Source of the DNA: Actinomycetospora sp. NBRC 106378
GTDB lineage: Bacteria > Actinomycetota > Actinomycetes > Mycobacteriales > Pseudonocardiaceae
Length of the DNA: 64,000 nucleotides
Reading direction: 5' to 3'
Assembly (NCBI RefSeq): GCF_030269685.1
Contig: NZ_BSTT01000009.1
Span: forward strand, 124,001 to 188,000
Part shown: positions 14,046 to 22,846 of the stretch, in pieces
How positions within the stretch are numbered: position 1 is the stretch's first letter
Layout: each line of letters starts with the position of its first letter
The notes under the pieces: generated by a model
What the model saw: the letters and a program-made list of their open reading frames with translations, nothing else
What the model was told of the DNA's origin: nothing
Database searches by the model: none
Translations under genes and position numbers: made by a program

Positions 14046-15410
14046 TCAGGAACCCAGCGCCAGCACGTTGCAGACGTCGCCGCGGCCGCCGGAGCTGGTC
14101 AGCCCGCGCTGCGAGCGGATGCGCTCGGCGAGGTAGCGGGCGTCGTCGCCCACCCCGGAGAACCGGCCCGAACCCCAGGTCCACTGCCAGGGCAGGCCGA
14201 GGAAGTAGAGCCCGGGCGCACTCGTGACGCCGCGCTGGTGGCCCGGCGCGCCACGGCCGGAGAACACCGGGACGTCGACCCACGCGAAGTTCTGCCGGAA
14301 GCCGATGCACCAGACGACGCTCGTGATGCCCGAGGAGGCGAGCTCGAGCGTCGTCGGGTCGGTCTCGGACCGCCAGACCGGGGTGTAGCGCTCCTCGACC
14401 GGGGCGTCGAGCTGCCGGTCGGCGATGTACTTGTCGATCGTGTCCTTGATCGACTCGGACACCTCGTCGGCGTGGTCGAGGCGCTCGGTGAGGTCGGGGT
14501 TGAAGTGCAGGACGCCGTCGCGGTGGTCGGTCATCAGCCCGTAGAGCCGCATCCCGTCGCGGGCGTGGGCGCGCAGGTCGATGTCGCGCCCGCCGTCGCG
14601 GCCGGTCACGTAGTGGTTGGCCTGCGCCCGGACCGCCTCCCGGCGCGGGTGCTCGGTGACGGGCATCCGGTAGTAGCCCATCTCGTCGAGCCAGTCGGTC
14701 ACGTCGCGGCCGCGGTAGAAGCGCGCCACGCGCGGGGCGTCACCGACGACGAGGTGGACCGTGCGGCCCTCGAGGTGCAGGTCCTCGGCGATCTGCGCCC
14801 CGGACTGCCCGGAGCCGACGACGAGCACCTCGCCGGGCGGCAGCTGCGCCCCGCTCTTGTAGTCCTGCGACTGGACCTGGGTGATCCCCTCCGGCAGCGG
14901 CTGGGACAGCGGCGGGGTGATCGGGGTGTGGTAACCGCCGGTGGCGACGACGACCTGGTCGGCCGTGCACTCACCGGCGGTCGTCGCGAGGTGGTAGGTG
15001 CCGTGGTCGTCGCGGGAGAGCCGCGTGACCCCGACCCCCTCGAGCAGCGGCGGCTCCACGAACGTCCGGTAGGCCTCCAGGTACTCGACGATCTGCGAGC
15101 GCACCATGAACCCGTGCGGGTCGGTGCCCCCGAAGCCGCGGCCCTGCTCGTCGAGGCCGTAGGGGAAGTCGGGCAGGTTGCACTGCCAGTTCGGGGTCAC
15201 CAGGCAGAAGGTGTCCCAGCGGTAGGTCTTCCACGAGTGCGCGACCTCGTCGCGCTCGAGCACGAGGTGGTCGACGCCCGCCCGCTGCAGGCACCGGCTC
15301 ATCGACAGGCCGGCCTGGCCGCCGCCGATGACGATCACGGGGCGGTGGACTCCGGTGAGGTCGCTCGGGACGTCCGGGCGGCCGCGGGTGGGAAGCGGCG
15401 TGACGGTCAT
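14046..15410 (-). CDS. MSMEG_0569-type flavin-dependent oxidoreductase of the Nit1C-like cluster
   Basis: A 454-aa flavoprotein of the FMO/CzcO-like group. The FAD Rossmann motif VIGGGQAG is near 27-34 and a second nucleotide motif VVGSGQSG near 197-204, so NAD(P)H-dependent oxidation is likely. Conserved segments WDTFCLVTPNW and GFRQNFAWV are present. It is the only member of the cluster on the minus strand, divergent from the Sll0783-like gene, as NitH-type proteins accompany the same set in other bacteria. The substrate is unknown. The ATG start is the only one near the conserved N-terminus. Confidence 0.87.
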   Translation of the reverse strand: MTVTPLPTRGRPDVPSDLTGVHRPVIVIGGGQAGLSMSRCLQRAGVDHLVLERDEVAHSWKTYRWDTFCLVTPNWQCNLPDFPYGLDEQGRGFGGTDPHGFMVRSQIVEYLEAYRTFVEPPLLEGVGVTRLSRDDHGTYHLATTAGECTADQVVVATGGYHTPITPPLSQPLPEGITQVQSQDYKSGAQLPPGEVLVVGSGQSGAQIAEDLHLEGRTVHLVVGDAPRVARFYRGRDVTDWLDEMGYYRMPVTEHPRREAVRAQANHYVTGRDGGRDIDLRAHARDGMRLYGLMTDHRDGVLHFNPDLTERLDHADEVSESIKDTIDKYIADRQLDAPVEERYTPVWRSETDPTTLELASSGITSVVWCIGFRQNFAWVDVPVFSGRGAPGHQRGVTSAPGLYFLGLPWQWTWGSGRFSGVGDDARYLAERIRSQRGLTSSGGRGDVCNVLALGS

Positions 15411-15807
15411 GGCCGGGGAGTTCCTTCCGGAGCGCGAGTGCGAATGAGCGCAGAGTTCGCCCGCGGTGTTTCCGAATGGTTGCGTGCGGAGGGCCGCCGT
15501 ATTTCGGAATGTTTCGCAACACGCACGTCACGAACGGCCCGACCGGTGACGTCTTCGTAGTCACGTGGAAATGACCGGGAAACAGGCGGTTGGTGTGCTC
15601 TGGCAGCACGACGTCCGGGACAGCGACGACCCGGTCCCGTAGTCCCGGTCCGATCGTCACCAGGGGGTCATCGTGCCCGGCTTCTGGGCGACGGTGCGGC
15701 AGAAGGTGACCGGAAAGTCCGCGGGCAGCCCCGCGGCGGCTCCGGACACCGCTCCACCGGCGTCACCCGAGATCGCTCCGCCCACCGCAGATTCGAAGGA
15801 GAACGGC
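15411..15807. promoter_or_regulatory. Divergent control region of the Nit1C-like cluster
   Basis: 397 bp between the flavoprotein ATG and the Sll0783-like ATG. The stretch 15465-15525 is clearly less GC-rich than the surroundings and contains TTCCGAA and TTTCGGAA in opposite orientation, about 26 bp apart. At 15546-15583 GTGAC, GTAGT, GAAAT and GAAAC follow one another in an 11-bp register, which weakly resembles GlnR boxes. An in-frame GTG at 15673 could extend the downstream protein by 45 residues, but they are low-complexity and the ribosome site favours 15808. Confidence 0.45.
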
Positions 15808-16326
15808 ATGACCACGGCCGAACTGTCCGACGTCGAGCAGAAGAGCCTCGAGGAGATCCCGCACCCCTCCCTGCCGGAGGGCTCCAGCATCTACGGCGGC
15901 ACCAAGGTCTTCCCCGACCTGCAGGCCGAGGGTGGCGAGACCTACTTCACCCTCGTCCACGGCATCGCCCACGAGTCCTCGGTCAGCTTCGTCGCGGTCC
16001 TGCAGGCCACGCGGGCGCTGCGCAAGGGCTTCGAGTCGGCCATGTACTTCTACGGCCCCGGTTCGCTGAACTGCCTCGCCACCCGCGGGTTCCCGACCAC
16101 GGGCACCTCGGCCTTCCCCGGCGAGCACAACATCAACGACCAGCTGAAGACGTTCATGTCCGAGGGCGGCAAGGTGTTCTGCTGCCGCTTCGGGCTCTCG
16201 CTGCACGGTGCCCGCGAGGAGGACCTCATCGAGGGGATCATCCCGACGCACCCGCTCGACGTCCAGGACGCGCTCATCTACTACGCGCGCAAGGGCGCCA
16301 TCATCAACTCGACCTACCAGCTCTAG
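15808..16326 (+). CDS. MSMEG_0572/Sll0783 family nitrogen-starvation response protein
   Basis: A 172-aa protein of the Sll0783/MSMEG_0572 family. Characteristic segments are SSIYGGTKVFPDL, YFTLVHGIAHESSVSFVA, SLNCLATRGFP and FCCRFGLSLHGA; three Cys are conserved in position. No reaction is known. The Synechocystis member is needed for normal polyhydroxybutyrate build-up under nitrogen starvation, and a relative belongs to the Nit1C cluster linked to cyanide assimilation. AAGGAG lies 8 nt before the ATG at 15808, fixing the start. A 21-bp hairpin follows the stop immediately. Confidence 0.93.
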   Translation: MTTAELSDVEQKSLEEIPHPSLPEGSSIYGGTKVFPDLQAEGGETYFTLVHGIAHESSVSFVAVLQATRALRKGFESAMYFYGPGSLNCLATRGFPTTGTSAFPGEHNINDQLKTFMSEGGKVFCCRFGLSLHGAREEDLIEGIIPTHPLDVQDALIYYARKGAIINSTYQL

Positions 16327-16336
16327 GTGCCTCCGG

Positions 16337-16382
16337 CAGGTGAGCACTAATCCGTGCTCAGGCACGGATTAGTGCTCACCTG
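16337..16382. terminator. Perfect 21-bp hairpin inside the Nit1C-like cluster
   Basis: Arms 16337-16357 and 16362-16382 are exact reverse complements around a TCAG loop. It starts 11 bp after the Sll0783-like stop and ends 32 bp before the radical SAM start. It may terminate or attenuate transcription, so the first protein would be made in excess over the rest. Confidence 0.7.
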
Positions 16383-16413
16383 CGGCCCGCCGCACATCGA
16401 GGAGGTCCCCGCG

Positions 16414-17523
16414 TTGTCCGCTCCCGCCGAATCCCGTTCCGGGCTCGACGTCCGTTCCGAGGTGGCAGTCCGCGGCGTCGCGGTCGATCTCGGCTCCACC
16501 ATCCCGCTGCGCCGCCCCGGCGGCGCCGGTCCCTCCGACGACGGGCACCTGCTCGTCGACGGCCTGAAGACCACCCTGCCGATCAACCCGTCGAGCCCCT
16601 TCCGGCTCCGGGACGGCCGGATCGTGCGCACCGGTCCCGACGGCGGGATCACCGACCTCGGCGTGGCCGTCGACACCGTCGCCCGGCCCGCCTTCTACGA
16701 CCTCACCACCGCCGACGGCGTCCGCTACGAGCAGATCGCGCGGCTGCACGGGAACGACGTGCTCGCGACGACGGTCGTGCAGACCTGCGTGCGCTACGAC
16801 GAAGCCGACCGCTGCCGCTTCTGCGCGATCGAGCAGTCGCTGCGCACCGGCGCGACCACCGCGGTGAAGACGCCCGCCCAGCTCGCCGAGGTCGCCGAGG
16901 CCGCGGTGCGGCTCGACGGCGTCCGGCAGATGGTCATGACGACGGGGACGAGCAACGGCCGCGACCGCGGCGCCCGCCACCTCGCGCGGTGCACCGCGGC
17001 GATCCGCGCCGCGGTGCCGGCCCTGCCGATCCAGGTGCAGTGCGAGCCCCCGGCGCCGGACGACCTCGACGCGCTGCGGGCACTCAAGGACGCCGGGGCC
17101 GACGCGATCGGCATCCACGTCGAGTCCCTCGACGACGCCGTCCGCCGCCGCTGGATGCCGGGCAAGGCCACGGTCCCGCTCGAGCAGTACTGGACGGCGT
17201 GGCACGAGAGCGTCCGCCTCTTCGGCCGCAACGCCGTGTCCACCTACCTCATCGTCGGTCTCGGCGAGGACCCCGACGAGCTGGTCGCGGGCGCCGAGCA
17301 GCTGATTGCTGCGGGCGTCTACCCCTTCGTCGTCCCCTACCGCCCGATCCCCGGGACGCTCGCGTTCGCCGACGGCGACCCCGCACCCGACCCGGCCCTC
17401 CTCGCCGACGTCACCGCCCGGGTGGCCGCCGCCCTGCGCGCGGCCGGCATGCGGGGCGCCGACCAGGCCGCCGGCTGCGCGGCCTGCGGGGCCTGCTCCG
17501 CCCTCTCCGCGGCGGGGGGCTGA
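16414..17523 (+). CDS. MSMEG_0568-type radical SAM protein
   Basis: A 369-aa radical SAM enzyme of the Nit1C/MSMEG_0568 family. The TTG at 16414 is taken as start because GGAGG lies 8 nt upstream and no ATG or GTG fits. The cluster-binding Cys are C125, C134 and C137, spaced C-x8-C-x2-C instead of the usual C-x3-C-x2-C, followed by AIEQSL. Later barrel segments include MVMTTGTSNG, QVQCEPP, DAIGIHVESLDD and STYLIVGLGED. A second Cys group, C355-x2-C358-x2-C361, sits at the very C-terminus and may bind another iron-sulfur cluster. The reaction is not known; it probably builds the small molecule of this cluster. Confidence 0.92.
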   Translation: MSAPAESRSGLDVRSEVAVRGVAVDLGSTIPLRRPGGAGPSDDGHLLVDGLKTTLPINPSSPFRLRDGRIVRTGPDGGITDLGVAVDTVARPAFYDLTTADGVRYEQIARLHGNDVLATTVVQTCVRYDEADRCRFCAIEQSLRTGATTAVKTPAQLAEVAEAAVRLDGVRQMVMTTGTSNGRDRGARHLARCTAAIRAAVPALPIQVQCEPPAPDDLDALRALKDAGADAIGIHVESLDDAVRRRWMPGKATVPLEQYWTAWHESVRLFGRNAVSTYLIVGLGEDPDELVAGAEQLIAAGVYPFVVPYRPIPGTLAFADGDPAPDPALLADVTARVAAALRAAGMRGADQAAGCAACGACSALSAAGG

Positions 17524-17527
17524 TCCG

Positions 17528-19018
17528 ATGGCGCCGCCGCTCGACGATGTGGCTGTCCTGCCGTCCGGTGAGGGCAACGACGCTTTCCTGTCACGGGGGA
17601 GGGGACTCTCCGCCGCCGAGGAGATCCTCGGCGGTCTGGTGCGCCGCCCCCGGGACGTCACGATCTCCGAGGCGCCCGCCGCGGACGCGTCGCACCCCGA
17701 CGTCGTCGCCCACCGCGCCCTGCGCCGCGCGGTGTTCGTCGACGAGCAGCGGGTCTTCGCCCACGACGACCTCGACGACACCGACACCGACCCCCGGGCG
17801 ATCGTGCTCGTCGCCCGCGACGCCGACGGCAGCGTCCTCGGCGGCGTGCGCCTCGGACCCGCCCGGCCGGGCGAGCCCGACCTGGGCTGGTGGACCGGCA
17901 GTCGGCTCGCGGTCGACGTCGACGGCCGGCGCCGGGCCGGGGTGCGGGTGGGCGCGACGCTCGTCCGCGCCGCGGTGGCCCGCGCCGAGACGGCGGGCGT
18001 GCTCCGCTTCGAGGCCGACGTCCAGACCCCGAACCGGCGGCTGTTCGAACGGCTGGGCTGGGAGACCGTCGCCCCGTCGCGCACCGTCGGCGGCGTCGAC
18101 CACGTGCGGATGCGGCGCCCGATGGACCGGATCCAGCGGCTCGTCGCCGCCACGAAGGCCCCGCTCGCCGGACTCGTGGCGGGCCTGGCCCCGGCCGGGT
18201 TCGTCGGCGACGACGGCGCCCCGGTGCCCGGCACGGACATGGTCGCGGCCTGCGACGCGATCCTGCCCGCGATGGTGGAGCGCGACCCGGAATGGGCCGG
18301 CTGGTGCTCCGTCCTGGTCAACCTCAACGACCTCGCCGCGATGGGCGCCCGCCCCGTGGGCCTGCTCGACGCGGTCGGCGGCACCGACGCCAGGTCCGTC
18401 GGGCGCGTGCTGCGCGGGATGCGCGCCGCGGCCGAGGCCTACGGTGTGCCGGTCCTCGGCGGGCACACCACGGTCGACGTCCCCGCCTCCCTCGCGGTCA
18501 CCGCGCTCGGCACCACGTCCCGCCCCGTCCCCGCGGGGGGCGGTCGGGTCGGGCACGAGGTGCGCCTCACCGTGGATCTGGACGGCGGGTGGCGGCCCGG
18601 CTACACCGGTCGCCAGTTCGACACCACCTCGCGGCGCCGCCCCGAGGAGCTGCGCGCGATGGTCGGGGCGATCGGACCGGACGCCGCGTACCGGCCGGCG
18701 GCCGCCAAGGACGTCAGCATGGCGGGCCTCGTCGGGACCCTCGGGATGCTCGCGGAGGCCAGCGGCACCGGCGCGGTCCTCGACGTGGCCGCGGTACCGC
18801 GACCCGACGGGGTGGGCGTCGCGGACTGGTTCACCTGCTTCCCCGGCTTCGCGCTGCTGACCACCGACGAGCCGGGAGCCCCGCTCCCGGCCGCGGGACC
18901 CGCCGTCGGACAGGCGTGCGGGGAACTCGTCGAGGGCGCGGGCGTGACGCTGCGCTGGCCCGACGGGGCGACCACAACCGCGGTCACGGACACCGTGACC
19001 GGACTCGGGAGGGCCTGA
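17528..19018 (+). CDS. Fused GNAT acetyltransferase - AIR synthase-like protein (MSMEG_0567/Sll0787 type)
   Basis: A 496-aa two-domain protein. The N-terminal GNAT domain (about 45-205) has FEADVQTPNRRLFERLGW, the acetyl-CoA-fold end typical of the MSMEG_0567 N-acetyltransferase. The C-terminal half (about 210-490) is AIR-synthase related (PurM-like ATP-binding fold), with VLVNLNDLAAMGARPVG, VLGGHTTVDVPASLAVTALG and KDVSMAGLVGTLGML. In some other genomes these are two proteins; here they are fused. The first 20 or so residues come from a family A repeat copy, so a GTG near 17640 could be the true start. It starts 5 bp after the radical SAM stop and overlaps the nitrilase by one base. Confidence 0.9.
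   Translation: MAPPLDDVAVLPSGEGNDAFLSRGRGLSAAEEILGGLVRRPRDVTISEAPAADASHPDVVAHRALRRAVFVDEQRVFAHDDLDDTDTDPRAIVLVARDADGSVLGGVRLGPARPGEPDLGWWTGSRLAVDVDGRRRAGVRVGATLVRAAVARAETAGVLRFEADVQTPNRRLFERLGWETVAPSRTVGGVDHVRMRRPMDRIQRLVAATKAPLAGLVAGLAPAGFVGDDGAPVPGTDMVAACDAILPAMVERDPEWAGWCSVLVNLNDLAAMGARPVGLLDAVGGTDARSVGRVLRGMRAAAEAYGVPVLGGHTTVDVPASLAVTALGTTSRPVPAGGGRVGHEVRLTVDLDGGWRPGYTGRQFDTTSRRRPEELRAMVGAIGPDAAYRPAAAKDVSMAGLVGTLGMLAEASGTGAVLDVAAVPRPDGVGVADWFTCFPGFALLTTDEPGAPLPAAGPAVGQACGELVEGAGVTLRWPDGATTTAVTDTVTGLGRA
17549..17594 (+). repeat. Family A repeat copy at the start of the GNAT-AIR gene
   Basis: The right part, CAACGACGCTTTCCTG plus TCAC, matches the right arm of the palindrome at 53050-53114 with one difference. 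The left arm is degenerate. The copy lies within the first codons of the annotated reading frame. Confidence 0.7.
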
Positions 19019-19860
19019 TGACGCTCACCTTCGCCGCTGCCGCCGAGGGCTTCGTGCGGGACCTGGACGAGGACTTCCGGCGGATCGAGGGCCTCATCGG
19101 GCAGGCCCGCGCCGCCGGCGCCGACCTGCTCGCGCTGCCGGAGGCCGCCCTCGGGGGTTACCTGTCCTCGCTGCACGACGACCCGGACGACGTGCCGCCG
19201 CAGCTCGACCCCGACGGGCCCGAGATCGCGCGGCTGGTGGCCCTCGCGGGCGACCTCGTGGTCACCGCCGGGTACTGCGAGCGCGGCGACGCCGCCTCCG
19301 GCGGGCGGCCGTACAACAGCGCGGTCGCGGTGCACGGCGACGGCGTGCTCGGCCGGCACCGCAAGGTCCACCAGCCGCTGAACGAGAACAACTCCTACGC
19401 GGCCGGCGACCGGTTCGCCGCCTTCGACTCCCCGGTCGGGCGGCTCGGGATGATGATCTGTTACGACAAGGCGTTCCCCGAGGCCGCGCGGGCCCTCGCC
19501 GTCGACGGCGCGCGGATCGTGGTGTGCATGTCGGCCTGGCCCGCCTCGCGGACCAACCGGGCTCCGGTGCTCGCCGACGACCGCTGGACCCGTCGGTTCG
19601 ACCTGTTCGACCGGGCCCGGGCGCTGGAGAACCAGATCGTCTGGGTGTCGGCCAACCAGGCCGGGACGTTCGGCTCGATGCAGCTCGTGGCGAGCGCGAA
19701 GGTCGTCGACCCGGGCGGGGAGGTCCTCGACACCACCGGCACCCGCGCCGGACTCGCCGTCGCCTCGATCGACGTCGACGACGCGGTGGACAACGCCCGC
19801 CGCTTCATGGGCCACCTGCGCGACCGCCGGGAGGCCAGCTACACGTCGGTCCCGGCCTAG
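19018..19860 (+). CDS. Nitrilase, Nit1/Sll0784 family (catalytic triad intact)
   Basis: A 280-aa carbon-nitrogen hydrolase. The catalytic triad is complete: E42 in ALPEAALGGY, K116 in RHRKVHQP and C148 in MMICYDKAFPE. The family hydrolyses nitriles or amides through a Cys thioimidate. The Nit1C relative is essential for the cyanide-assimilation phenotype reported in Pseudomonas, and the Synechocystis relative is a nitrilase with aliphatic and aromatic dinitrile activity. The true substrate here is unknown. The ATG overlaps the previous stop by one base, and the gene is followed 11 bp later by a paralogue lacking the triad. Confidence 0.92.
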   Translation: MTLTFAAAAEGFVRDLDEDFRRIEGLIGQARAAGADLLALPEAALGGYLSSLHDDPDDVPPQLDPDGPEIARLVALAGDLVVTAGYCERGDAASGGRPYNSAVAVHGDGVLGRHRKVHQPLNENNSYAAGDRFAAFDSPVGRLGMMICYDKAFPEAARALAVDGARIVVCMSAWPASRTNRAPVLADDRWTRRFDLFDRARALENQIVWVSANQAGTFGSMQLVASAKVVDPGGEVLDTTGTRAGLAVASIDVDDAVDNARRFMGHLRDRREASYTSVPA

Positions 19861-19871
19861 GCCCGGGCCCC

Positions 19872-20699
19872 GTGCTCCGGATCGCCGCCGCAGCGGCCCA
19901 CTTCACCCGCGACCTCGAGTTCGACCTCGAACGGATCGGCGTCATCGTCGCGCACGCGCGCGACGCCGGGGTCCGGCTGCTGGCCCTGCCCGACGGGGCG
20001 CTCGGCGGGTACGTGACCGACCTGCGCCCGGACGACCTCGAGGCGGTGGACCTGCCGCCCGCGCTCGAGCCCAACGGCGACGCGGTGCGCTCGGTCATCG
20101 ACCTCGCCGAGGACATGGTCGTGTGCCTCGGGTACTGCGAGCGGGGGCCCGGTGGCGAGCTCTACAACGCCGCGGTCGCGCTCTGCGGGGACGGGATCCT
20201 CGGTCGGCACCGCAAGGTGCACCAGCCGGCGGGCGTGGCCAAGCTGTTCACGCCGGGCTGCGGGTTCTCGGCCTTCGACAGCCCGGTCGGGCGCCTCGGG
20301 ATGCTCATCGACCACGACAAGACGTTCCCGGAGTCGGCCCGGGCGCTGGCGCTCGACGGCGCGACCACGATCGCCTGCCTCTCCGCGTGGCCGACCTCCC
20401 TGACCAACCGCGCGCCGCGCATGGCCCAGGACCGGCAGGCCCGGCTGTTCGACCTCTACGACCAGTCGCGGGCCGCCGAGAACCAGGTGCTGTGGCTGTC
20501 GGCGAACCAGAGCGGGCGGTCGGGCGCGCTGCACTTCCTGGGGCGGGCGAAGGTCGTCGGGCCCGGTGGGGAGATCCTCGCGCGGACCTGGTCCAAGGGC
20601 GGCCTCGCCGTCGCCGAGGTCGACCCCGCCGCGATGGTCGACGCCGCGCGGGCCGTCCTGCACCACCTCGACGAACGACGGCCCTCGGCGTACTCGTGA
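19872..20699 (+). CDS. Nitrilase-fold paralogue lacking catalytic Cys and Glu
   Basis: A 275-aa protein that aligns with the preceding nitrilase along its whole length, with shared GRHRKVHQP, FDSPVGRLGM and PESARALALDGA. The catalytic Glu is replaced by D41 (LALPDGALGGY), the catalytic Cys by D147 (MLIDHDKTFPE), and only the triad Lys (K115) remains. It is intact and at the same codon bias, so it is not a decaying pseudogene. The most likely roles are a regulatory or structural partner of the active nitrilase, or a protein that binds the substrate without cutting it. The GTG start at 19872 is inferred from the alignment. It overlaps the glycosyltransferase by 4 nt. Confidence 0.88.
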   Translation: MLRIAAAAAHFTRDLEFDLERIGVIVAHARDAGVRLLALPDGALGGYVTDLRPDDLEAVDLPPALEPNGDAVRSVIDLAEDMVVCLGYCERGPGGELYNAAVALCGDGILGRHRKVHQPAGVAKLFTPGCGFSAFDSPVGRLGMLIDHDKTFPESARALALDGATTIACLSAWPTSLTNRAPRMAQDRQARLFDLYDQSRAAENQVLWLSANQSGRSGALHFLGRAKVVGPGGEILARTWSKGGLAVAEVDPAAMVDAARAVLHHLDERRPSAYS

Positions 20700-21781
20700 G
20701 GATCCGGCTCTCCACCTACTCCACCAAGCCCCGCGGTGGGGTCGTCCACACGCTCGCCCTGGCCGAGGCGCTGGGCCGGGCCGGGCACGACGTCGAGGTG
20801 TGGGCGCTCGCGCGCGGCGGCGACACCTCCTTCTTCCGGGACGTCGCCGTCCCGATCCGGCTCGTCGGGGTGCCCGATCTCGACGGCGAGTCGGTCGGCG
20901 ACCGCATCCTGCGCTCGATCTCCCTCCTGACCGCAGCGCTCTCGGAGGCGGGTCCGGTCGACGTCCGGCACGCCCAGGACTGCCTCACCGCCAACGCCGA
21001 GGGCGCGGCGCACGGGTACGCGGGTCTGGTCCGCACCGTGCACCACCTGGACCAGTTCACGACGCCGTCGCTCGCCGCCTGCCACGAACGCGCCCTGGTG
21101 CGGCCCGCGCAGCTGCTCTGCGTCTCCGAGTCGGTCGCCGCCGAGGTGGCGGCGGGCTGGGACCGGACCGCACCCGTCGTCGGGAACGGGGTGGACGCGG
21201 CCCGGTTCGCCGCGGCCGAGGCGGCCGGCGCGGGCGAGCCGTGGCGGGCCCGGTTCGGGCGCTACGTGCTGTCGGTCGGCGGCATCGAGCCGCGCAAGGG
21301 GACCGTGGACCTGGTCCGGGCGATGGCGGACGTCGACGCGCCCCTGGTGATCGCCGGCGGCGACACCCTCTTCGACTACCGCGGCTACCGCGACGAGGTG
21401 TTCGCCCTCGCGGCGTCGCTGGGCGTGGAGCCGGTGGTCCTCGGGCCCGTTCCCGACGACGAGCTCCCCGGGCTCGTGGCCGGCGCGTCCGCCTTCGCGT
21501 TCCCCTCGACCAAGGAGGGCTTCGGGCTCGCCGCCATGGAGGCGCTGGCCGCCGGGGTGCCCGTCGTCGCGCGGGACCTGCCGGTGCTGCGGGAGGTGTT
21601 CGCGGGCGCGGTGCGGTTCGCGGCGGACGCTCCCGGGTTCGCCGCCGAGCTCCGGGGTGTGCTCGCGGGGGACGACCCGGGCGCCCCGGCGCGCACGTCG
21701 ATCGGGCGCGCCCTGGCCGCCTCGCACACCTGGGACGCCGTCGCGGCGCGGCACCTGGCGGAGTACGCCGCCGCGCCGTGA
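20696..21781 (+). CDS. MSMEG_0565-type glycosyltransferase (GT4/GT-B fold)
   Basis: A 361-aa GT-B glycosyltransferase. The N-terminus IRLSTYSTKPRGGVVHTLAL is typical of the MSMEG_0565 family; the donor domain has LSVGGIEPRKGTVDL and the E-x7-E-like segment KEGFGLAAMEALAAGVPVV. It probably glycosylates the product of the cluster. Its GTG lies in a GTGA overlap with the nitrilase-like gene, making it the last cistron. Its TGA is the first part of a family A repeat copy shared with the converging monooxygenase gene. Confidence 0.9.
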   Translation: MRIRLSTYSTKPRGGVVHTLALAEALGRAGHDVEVWALARGGDTSFFRDVAVPIRLVGVPDLDGESVGDRILRSISLLTAALSEAGPVDVRHAQDCLTANAEGAAHGYAGLVRTVHHLDQFTTPSLAACHERALVRPAQLLCVSESVAAEVAAGWDRTAPVVGNGVDAARFAAAEAAGAGEPWRARFGRYVLSVGGIEPRKGTVDLVRAMADVDAPLVIAGGDTLFDYRGYRDEVFALAASLGVEPVVLGPVPDDELPGLVAGASAFAFPSTKEGFGLAAMEALAAGVPVVARDLPVLREVFAGAVRFAADAPGFAAELRGVLAGDDPGAPARTSIGRALAASHTWDAVAARHLAEYAAAP

Positions 21782-21818
21782 CAGGACGTCGTTGCTGTCA
21801 TCCAGTGGCAGCTCCGGC
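21778..21818. repeat. Family A repeat copy between convergent genes
   Basis: GTGACAGGACGTCGTTGCTG begins at the glycosyltransferase stop; an inverted GTGGCAG follows after a short loop. The stop codons of both converging genes (21779-21781 and 21798-21800) lie inside the element. It is a partial copy of the palindrome at 53050-53114. Confidence 0.7.
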
Positions 21819-22130
21819 CACATCGTCGGGCGCGGTGCCCGCGTGGACCTGCTCGTAGACGGCGGGGGTCGAGGCGACCTCGGCCCACTCCGGCCCGCTG
21901 ACGAGGGTCCGGAACTCCTCGTCGTGTGCCGCGGCGACGGCGGCAGGCGAGGCCCAGCGCGCCACGTTCACGAAACGGAACCGCGCGTCGGGCGCGAGTG
22001 AGCGGTACAGGCGGTGGCCCTCGTACCCGGCCCGGGTGCGCATGTGGGCGTTGACGTCCTGCCAGCGGGCGAAGAAGTCGTCCTCGCGACCGGCGGGGAC
22101 CTCGAAGCAGTTGACGAACGTGACGGACAT
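21798..22130 (-). CDS. Antibiotic biosynthesis monooxygenase (ABM) domain protein
   Basis: A 110-aa dimeric ferredoxin-like fold protein. It starts with VTFVNCFEVPAGREDDFF, followed by GYEGHRLYRSL and FVNVARWASPAAVAAA, the usual ABM pattern found in quinol monooxygenases, heme-degrading proteins and stress proteins. The activity cannot be assigned. It is divergent from a TetR gene and shares a control region holding tandem operators, so that TetR protein very likely represses it. Confidence 0.83.
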   Translation of the reverse strand: MSVTFVNCFEVPAGREDDFFARWQDVNAHMRTRAGYEGHRLYRSLAPDARFRFVNVARWASPAAVAAAHDEEFRTLVSGPEWAEVASTPAVYEQVHAGTAPDDVAGAATG

Positions 22131-22148
22131 GACGGGCTCCTTCTCTGA

Positions 22149-22184
22149 GTGCACTGCTGTGCAGTGAGTGCACTGTCGTACACT
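22149..22184. promoter_or_regulatory. Tandem operator between ABM and TetR genes
   Basis: Two 17-bp units beginning GTGCACTG are spaced 19 bp apart at 22149-22165 and 22168-22184. The first contains the perfect palindrome CACTGC-TGT-GCAGTG. This is the expected form of a TetR-family operator in a divergent promoter. Confidence 0.65.
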
Positions 22185-22213
22185 GAGGCTTCCGTCGTCA
22201 AGAAGGAGCCCCG

Positions 22214-22846
22214 ATGGACACCCGGGAGGCGCAGCGCCGCCGGACGCGCCGCGCGATCGTCGACGCCACTGCGGGTCTGCTCGCCGCCGATCCCGCGCGC
22301 ACGCCGGCGGTCGCCGAGATCGCGGCGGTCGCCGAGGTCTCGCGGCGGACGGTCTACCTGCACTTCCCGACCCTCGACCAGCTCCTGCTCGACGCCGTGC
22401 TCGGCAGCCTGTCCGGCGACGTCGACGCCGCGCTCGAGGCCGCACCGGCCGACGACGTCCGGGCCCGGGTGATCGCACTCGTCGACGCCGTCGTGGCCAC
22501 GATGGGCACCTCGCTGGGGCTGGGTCGCCGCCTGGTCGCGCTGACGGCCGGGTGGAGCCCGCAGGAGGACGGGGCGCCACGGCGCGGCTACCGGCGCGTC
22601 GGGTGGATCGAGGCGGCCCTCGCACCGCTGCGCGAGGTCCTCGGCGCCGACGCGTTCGAGGACCTCGTCTCGGCGCTCGCCGTCGTCATCGGCTGGGAGG
22701 CCGTGGTGGTGTTGACCGACGTCCGGGGGTTGACCGTCGCGAAGGCCGGCGAGGTGTGCCGCCGGGCCGCGCTCGCGCTCCTCGACGCCGCGACCGACGA
22801 GGTGCGACGCGCCCCGTGGGTACACCCCTGCCGTGACCACCCCTGA
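22214..22846 (+). CDS. TetR family transcriptional regulator
   Basis: A 210-aa regulator. The N-terminal helix-turn-helix spans about residues 10-55 and ends in the typical VSRRTVYLHFPTLDQLLLDAV; the C-terminal ligand domain is not recognisable. AAGGAG sits 7 nt before the ATG. It should control the divergent ABM gene through the repeats at 22149-22184 and possibly itself with the DsbA-like gene, which it overlaps by 14 nt. Confidence 0.9.
   Translation: MDTREAQRRRTRRAIVDATAGLLAADPARTPAVAEIAAVAEVSRRTVYLHFPTLDQLLLDAVLGSLSGDVDAALEAAPADDVRARVIALVDAVVATMGTSLGLGRRLVALTAGWSPQEDGAPRRGYRRVGWIEAALAPLREVLGADAFEDLVSALAVVIGWEAVVVLTDVRGLTVAKAGEVCRRAALALLDAATDEVRRAPWVHPCRDHP

Follow-up and report, generated by a model that had tools for sequence, protein, structure and literature searches.

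Within a 64,000-nucleotide stretch of the genome of Actinomycetospora sp. NBRC 106378 (contig NZ_BSTT01000009.1, positions 124,001 to 188,000; hereafter the window), this soil actinobacterium carries two adjacent carbon-nitrogen hydrolase paralogues, designated here Nact (19018..19860, plus strand) and Npse (19872..20699, plus strand). Nact has an intact set of catalytic residues, and Npse has aspartate in place of the catalytic cysteine. Every related gene read carries the identical swap, and on these sequence comparisons we therefore conclude that Npse forms an old Cys-to-Asp branch of the nitrilase superfamily, one that is widely maintained and carries a hydrolase label. We put at roughly one in two the probability that Npse is a neofunctionalised branch of the MSMEG_0566 type that would use its own pocket without thioester chemistry.

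The Cys-to-Asp swap in Npse and its orthologues

The Npse reading frame encodes 275 amino acids with zero internal stops, and its GC content at third codon positions (GC3, 0.975) is close to that of Nact (0.979), in agreement with an earlier reading of the window made from its letters alone (the sequence-only reading), which had described an undamaged frame with normal codon use. The best other match to Npse in the genome is its upstream neighbour Nact, with 55% identity over query residues 2-274, which reproduces the end-to-end alignment given in that reading. Both proteins belong to the superfamily by descent, with Pfam CN_hydrolase scores of 99.2 bits for Npse and 131.9 bits for Nact (cut-off 23.2). 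The AlphaFold2 models of Npse (predicted local distance difference test (pLDDT) 90.7, predicted template modelling score (pTM) 0.91) and Nact (pLDDT 93.6) each display the ordinary superfamily fold and are closest to the Pyrococcus amidase/nitrilase.

The catalytic codons of Nact are those for E42 (GAG), K116 (AAG), E123 (GAG) and C148 (TGT), and this neighbour is intact, as had been stated. At the matching positions Npse encodes D41 (GAC, 19992..19994), K115 (AAG, 20214..20216), V122 (GTG) and D147 (GAC, 20310..20312), all on the plus strand, and so does not have the Glu-Lys-Cys triad and second Glu of a competent nitrilase or amidase. The sequence-only reading had placed the two Asp replacements at 42 and 148, which is Nact numbering, and had described Lys as the only residue of the triad left; the Lys is kept, and to the losses must be added that of the second Glu. 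In the superfamily mechanism, Cys forms a thioester and Glu acts as the base. Lacking this nucleophile and having no base left at the usual place, Npse is predicted to be unable to run the Cys chemistry of the superfamily. A sequencing error was considered as the source of Asp147 and rejected: turning TGT or TGC into GAC takes at least two base changes, so a single miscalled base cannot account for it, and all 124 orthologues agree.

Orthologues were collected by a scan of genome contigs, which gave 80 loci (the best 80 of 185 relatives), from 249 family genomes (59 with matches) and, by profile, from 393 class genomes (49 with matches). Loci repeating a counted genome, matches of 690 bases or fewer or under the bit limits, and sequences containing N were dropped before counting. 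Identical proteins were removed before the residue counts, the comparison of nonsynonymous with synonymous substitution rates (dN/dS) and the entropy comparison, and the alignment set comprised 124 distinct Npse and 127 distinct Nact proteins. Two truncated genes stand outside these counts, an Npse at a contig end with D at the Cys position (L174) and a Nact with the residues E-K-E-C (L175). The Cys position is D in 124/124 Npse and C in 127/127 Nact, so that the replacement is conserved in other genomes. The position of the base Glu is never E in Npse (D 114, G 5, Y 2, H 2, Q 1) and is E in 127/127 Nact. The catalytic Lys is present in 123/124 Npse (one Q, from a metagenome assembly) and 127/127 Nact, and the second Glu position reads E in 100 Npse, V in 15, I in 7, L in 1 and D in 1, the window's clade being among those without the Glu, and E in 127/127 Nact. 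Orthologues retaining the triad were sought, and neither an Npse that keeps the Cys nor a transitional form was found among the 124 distinct proteins.

Rooted on an outgroup, a tree of 92 rows places Npse and Nact as sister clades, each on one side of a branch. The supports from the Shimodaira-Hasegawa-like approximate likelihood ratio test (SH-aLRT), a quick method, are 88 and 89, neither of them starred, and the program flagged long outgroup branches and an odd letter composition in two outgroup rows. Both genes also occur together in L146, which lies outside the class by its label. The simplest reading of the sister clades appears to be a single old duplication, in which transfer may or may not have had a part.

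Npse outside Actinomycetota was looked for in the contig scan and among plasmids, the genome searches covering the phylum. In the contig scan, actinobacterial titles were found throughout the best 80 of 185 relatives, and among them the named loci nearest to the window are from Actinomycetospora, at 90-97% identity. A plasmid search for Npse returned four records, all from Rhodococcus, with two places each; one plasmid copy reads LPDA, RKVHQPAGE and LIDYDK in Npse, and LPEA, RKVHQPLGE and QICYDK in Nact. On Rhodococcus megaplasmids (L256:1444-8918 and L257:1444-8930), a cluster in which an MSMEG_0570 gene accompanies the Nact/Npse pair has transposases nearby, and because of this location and these transposases it may move as a unit. 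Two metagenome loci were observed in addition. An Actinomycetospora contig (L021:6001-6801) holds the Npse with the sole Lys-to-Gln change among the 124 proteins, and no other cluster gene was found in the 11,992 of its 13,254 bases that were examined. The cluster at L175:7796-8296, in a genome that is 87% complete, has the truncated Nact and no Npse, perhaps because a deletion spans the two genes or the assembly is faulty.

Selection was estimated by the Nei-Gojobori method in two groups of Actinomycetospora loci, where dN/dS is 0.123 (15 pairs) and 0.144 (28 pairs) for Npse and 0.156 and 0.159 for Nact; these values indicate that Npse is under purifying selection. Mean entropy at 49 catalytic-loop positions, hand-picked from sequence with the four catalytic positions excluded, is 0.354 bits for Npse and 0.476 for Nact at the 103 loci with both, compared with 1.012 and 1.079 at the other 209 positions. 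In 6810 of 10000 random draws the difference between the two proteins was at least as large as that in the loops, and the loops of Npse are not relaxed in comparison with those of Nact. Thirteen positions, including C85, G121, R180, R191 and K242, are fixed (at least 95%) in Npse and variable in Nact, seven are fixed in Nact and variable in Npse, and nine are fixed (at least 90%) differently in each family (41, 147, 151, 189, 192, 202, 223, 263 and 268). C85 shortly precedes a conserved Gly-x-x-Glu.

Decay of Npse was rejected on the low dN/dS together with catalytic loops no less conserved than those of Nact. An inactive duplicate on its way to being lost is accordingly a most improbable description of Npse, even with a base Glu position that accepts five residues, a second Glu that is gone in 24/124 proteins (the window's clade included) and the Lys-to-Gln change in L021: Asp is invariant, dN/dS lies near 0.12-0.14, the loops are unrelaxed, and full-length open frames extend across many families of the class. 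The sequence-only reading had proposed a maintained pseudoenzyme. The constant Asp, the low dN/dS and the unrelaxed loops support this well beyond the present genome; strict non-catalysis does not follow, since the pocket is apparently kept, with residues fixed in Npse alone.

Possible roles of Npse as a partner of Nact or in its own right

The pair lies in a cluster of the MSMEG_0565-0572 type, which is described below and whose genes are called here by the names of their MSMEG families. Npse and Nact are sister paralogues sharing this cluster, and we regard it as possible, though doubtful, that a non-catalytic Npse assembles with Nact in a heteromer and shapes or regulates the Nact active site. 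Two matches were found in 32 of the 49 positive class genomes, and two or more in 57 of the 59 positive family genomes. Npse residues were read in all 32 class genomes, and the second match is in the Nact score range, with E-K-E-C read in 15 and partly in one more. Loci L051 and L171 hold both genes with no radical SAM, AIR or glycosyltransferase match in the stretch examined. Filaments and tetramers occur among superfamily members, as seen in structure entries. Helices 152-160 and 187-204, the usual dimer face, are the most conserved group of Npse positions compared (mean entropy 0.290, overlapping the loops) and contain three of the nine differently fixed positions (189, 192 and 202).

Against such a heteromer, the obligate co-occurrence looked for in a partner was not found: Nact stands alone in 16 of the 49 positive class genomes and Npse in 1. 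All 16 Nact-only loci (L229-L244) have E-K-E-C and a glycosyltransferase, and 14 of them have MSMEG_0572, MSMEG_0568 and MSMEG_0567 matches. The gap between Nact and the glycosyltransferase was examined in six of the 16; another flavin adenine dinucleotide (FAD)-type protein with weak family matches lies there in L229, L231, L235 and L238, a protein of the MSMEG_0569 type over the cut-off lies there in L242, and in L243 the MSMEG_0569 query matches at 423 bits. The solitary Npse (G662, L226:8342-9205) reads D-K-E-D in a genome that is 98% complete and has no match in the Nact range and none to the MSMEG_0572 family; no cluster gene was found in the 25 kb adjoining it. Its neighbours encode ChrB_C and aldose 1-epimerase proteins, the aldose 1-epimerase gene standing directly after it.

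Among 133 Npse loci, Nact is directly before Npse in only 62, and the glycosyltransferase gene is directly after it in 121. Two genes were counted as directly adjacent if no other of the seven query genes lay between them and the gap was within 200 bases; some loci stop at contig ends. Mirror-tree correlations (r) of Npse over 59 complete loci are 0.846 with MSMEG_0569, 0.835 with MSMEG_0568, 0.825 with MSMEG_0567, 0.782 with MSMEG_0565, 0.769 with Nact and 0.529 with MSMEG_0572, so that Nact ranks below four of the five other cluster genes in agreement with the Npse tree. The partial correlation with Nact is -0.12, the highest being 0.40 with MSMEG_0567 and 0.32 with MSMEG_0569. Special coevolution of Nact and Npse was not found by mirror-tree at the 59 loci, and no open reading frame with both domains occurs among 179 loci. 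The suggestion of the sequence-only reading that Npse is a subunit or sensor for the active nitrilase thus gained no particular support from co-occurrence, adjacency or tree correlation.

The near-constant glycosyltransferase neighbour, found irrespective of the position of Nact, bears on a different proposal, in which Npse would bind a nitrile or amide of the pathway, or a nitrogen-status signal, and pass it on to or regulate a cluster protein, with the glycosyltransferase, the AIR-like enzyme and the flavoprotein as candidates. The partial correlations, which are highest with MSMEG_0567 and MSMEG_0569, are consistent with such a sensor or carrier, as is the induction of the M. smegmatis genes by nitrogen limitation in the available portions of PMC4222082, PMC4617892 and PMC6039565. 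We nevertheless consider it quite improbable, both the role and its candidate targets. The glycosyltransferase is present without Npse in 16/16 Nact-only loci, no glycosyltransferase match lies near Npse in the stretches examined of L051, L171 and L226, and the adjacency may reflect ancestral gene order.

Three readings of the constant Asp and near-constant Lys remain: the Asp may pair with the buried Lys in a ligand-binding pocket, it may serve as nucleophile or base of a different reaction, or the pocket may have been kept for assembly with Nact. A role with its own pocket appears somewhat more likely for Npse than that of a Nact subunit. In the reading to which we give about even odds, Npse would be a pathway protein in its own right and not an obligate Nact subunit, acting via a pocket in which Asp147 faces Lys115. 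It would bind an intermediate of the cluster, either a nitrile or an amide, and possibly convert it without a thioester, while Nact would perform the hydrolysis. A stronger version, in which Asp147, Lys115, C85, R180, R191 and K242 run a thioester-free reaction in a nucleophile-switched enzyme, seems unlikely; in one example of it, the radical SAM and AIR-like proteins would make a nitrile or amide that Npse would hydrate or rearrange, with Nact finishing the hydrolysis.

Several observations weigh against Npse as an independent pocket protein. Besides Asp, the former Glu position accepts four residues (G, Y, H and Q), and V, I or L takes the place of the second Glu in 23/124 proteins and D in 1 more, with the window's clade among them; because these two positions vary, the data do not demand an elaborate catalytic site, and the invariant Asp could merely pair with a buried Lys. 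The strong conservation of the two post-Cys helices fits an interface too. The loops were selected by hand from sequence without coordinates, the solitary Npse is one genome among the 33 with Npse in the class sample, and the clade supports of 88 and 89 are under the program's star level in a tree whose outgroup branches are long.

The gene cluster around Npse

The cluster in the window has MSMEG_0565, MSMEG_0567, MSMEG_0568, MSMEG_0569 and MSMEG_0572 family genes side by side, all over curated cut-offs. It begins with an MSMEG_0569 family flavin-dependent oxidoreductase on the minus strand (14046..15410; TIGR04046, 635.5 bits, cut-off 498.35), and the remaining genes are on the plus strand. 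These are an MSMEG_0572/Sll0783 family nitrogen starvation response protein (15673..16326; TIGR04044, 248.4 bits, cut-off 109.85, the match covering residues 61-216), an MSMEG_0568 family radical SAM protein (16354..17523; TIGR04043, 501.1 bits, cut-off 303.7) and MSMEG_0567, a fusion of GNAT and AIR-synthase-like parts (17528..19018; TIGR04045, 98.7 bits, and TIGR04050, 456.4 bits, both over cut-off), whose start is inferred as the ATG just past the radical SAM stop within a frame that is open, and was scanned, from 17306. The Nact ATG at 19018 overlaps the stop codon of this preceding gene (TGA, 19016-19018). Beyond Npse lies the MSMEG_0565 family glycosyltransferase (20696..21781; TIGR04047, 399.5 bits, cut-off 259.85, scored on the frame from 20699), whose inferred in-frame GTG start at 20696 overlaps the Npse stop (TGA, 20697-20699), as expected from the translational coupling proposed in the sequence-only reading. 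An ABM-domain gene (minus strand) and a TetR-type regulator (plus strand) are located downstream of the cluster at 21798-22846. The sole MSMEG_0570 family match of the genome is on another contig.

Neither paralogue is a member of the Nit6803/Nit1C nitrilase family: against TIGR04048 (cut-off 502.6), Npse scores 22.8 bits and Nact 20.9 bits, and the best match in the genome, on another contig, reaches 150.7 bits, below the cut-off. A strict Nit1C cluster, with a TIGR04048 nitrilase, is therefore absent; what the window holds is a Nit1C variant that lacks this nitrilase and has the Npse/Nact pair in its place. The sequence-only reading had called it "Nit1C-like", an apt term if the stress falls on "like", since neither paralogue is the Nit1C/Nit6803 nitrilase. 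A phylum-level search with the glycosyltransferase family found matches over the cut-off in 24 of 396 genomes, and in 24 genomes with a glycosyltransferase match over or near the cut-off, none (0/24) had a Nit6803-type nitrilase over its own cut-off.

Nitrile hydratase genes accompany related clusters. A second type of MSMEG_0572-family gene in the family has 39-50% identity to that of the window in the loci read. Four of five such loci examined (L246-L249, not L250) carry the alpha, beta and accessory genes of nitrile hydratase no more than 15 kb away, and so do 3 of 21 loci around weaker glycosyltransferase matches (L156, L160 and L161 of L150-L170); the nitrile hydratase family scan was done on L247 (L247:7219-9462), and the other loci were assigned by BLAST to L247. 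Elsewhere the genome studied here has three nitrile hydratase alpha-type matches, two of them over the cut-off. One genome of the Actinomycetospora group (G118) has both the second MSMEG_0572 type and the Nact/Npse type, and the Pseudonocardia ammonioxydans locus has, at its edge and some 6 kb upstream of Npse, part of a nitrile hydratase beta-type gene (L013:3-326). It thus seems that a single type of core can be joined by any one of nitrile hydratase, the Nit1C nitrilase or the Nact/Npse pair, and such interchange would indicate a nitrile or amide intermediate. Clusters in which a related core adjoins nitrile hydratase genes reduce the range of substrates to be considered.

Comparison with known systems

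In the M. smegmatis MSMEG_0565-0572 "gpr" operon, MSMEG_0566 is, like Npse, located between the MSMEG_0567 and MSMEG_0565 genes. The gene order of L145 and L147 (MSMEG_0572, Nact, MSMEG_0569, MSMEG_0568, MSMEG_0567, Npse, MSMEG_0565; Npse D-K-E-D in both) agrees with the MSMEG numbering, which puts Npse at the MSMEG_0566 place and Nact at the MSMEG_0571 place. On this gene order, Npse probably corresponds to MSMEG_0566. MSMEG_0566, as an aliphatic amidase, and MSMEG_0571, as a carbon-nitrogen hydrolase, are both induced under nitrogen limitation according to the accessible parts of PMC4222082 and PMC4617892. In those of PMC6039565, the operon is GlnR-dependent, and a strain from which it has been deleted is less resistant to peroxide and has a lower NADPH/NADP ratio; the discussion there proposes the UGA of MSMEG_0571 as a selenocysteine codon, and the Nact stop codon in the window is TAG. 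Within the accessible text of these three papers, MSMEG_0566 goes by the name "aliphatic amidase", the loss of the Cys that is seen in Npse is not mentioned, and no substrate of the operon was found named.

Database records label the Npse family "carbon-nitrogen hydrolase family protein". This label, like that of amidase in the portions of the literature available, probably misleads, since the superfamily nucleophile is absent. The constant Asp offers a handle on two possibilities, a non-catalytic binder in a nitrile or amide pathway and a nitrilase fold put to a new use.

The Nit1C cluster (PMC1199592), including nitBCDEFGH of a cyanotrophic Pseudomonas (PMC11049912), shares MSMEG_0572-like, radical SAM, GNAT, AIR-like and flavoprotein genes with the window as far as the accessible text of these sources describes it; it has the TIGR04048 nitrilase, whereas the cluster in the window has the Nact/Npse pair instead. 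At the two positions that are Asp in Npse, the Pyrococcus amidase/nitrilase PH0642 and PaNit (1j31, 6ypa and 3ivz) have Glu and, in the wild type, Cys. The accessible text of the literature searched, which was mostly non-subscription, gave no account of a superfamily branch with a clade-wide Cys-to-Asp change.

Type II polyketide synthases offer a parallel to the possible heteromer in ketosynthase (KS)-alpha and the chain-length factor, which are likewise neighbouring paralogues, one with its Cys replaced by a conserved residue. The chain-length factor is the Cys-less KS-beta and the obligate heterodimer partner of KS-alpha; it has another fold, and unlike this obligate partner, Nact and Npse are each found alone in some genomes. 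The alpha/beta hydrolases that use an Asp nucleophile, such as haloalkane dehalogenase and epoxide hydrolase, are a precedent for a change of nucleophile to Asp with new chemistry, although their fold differs from that of Npse.
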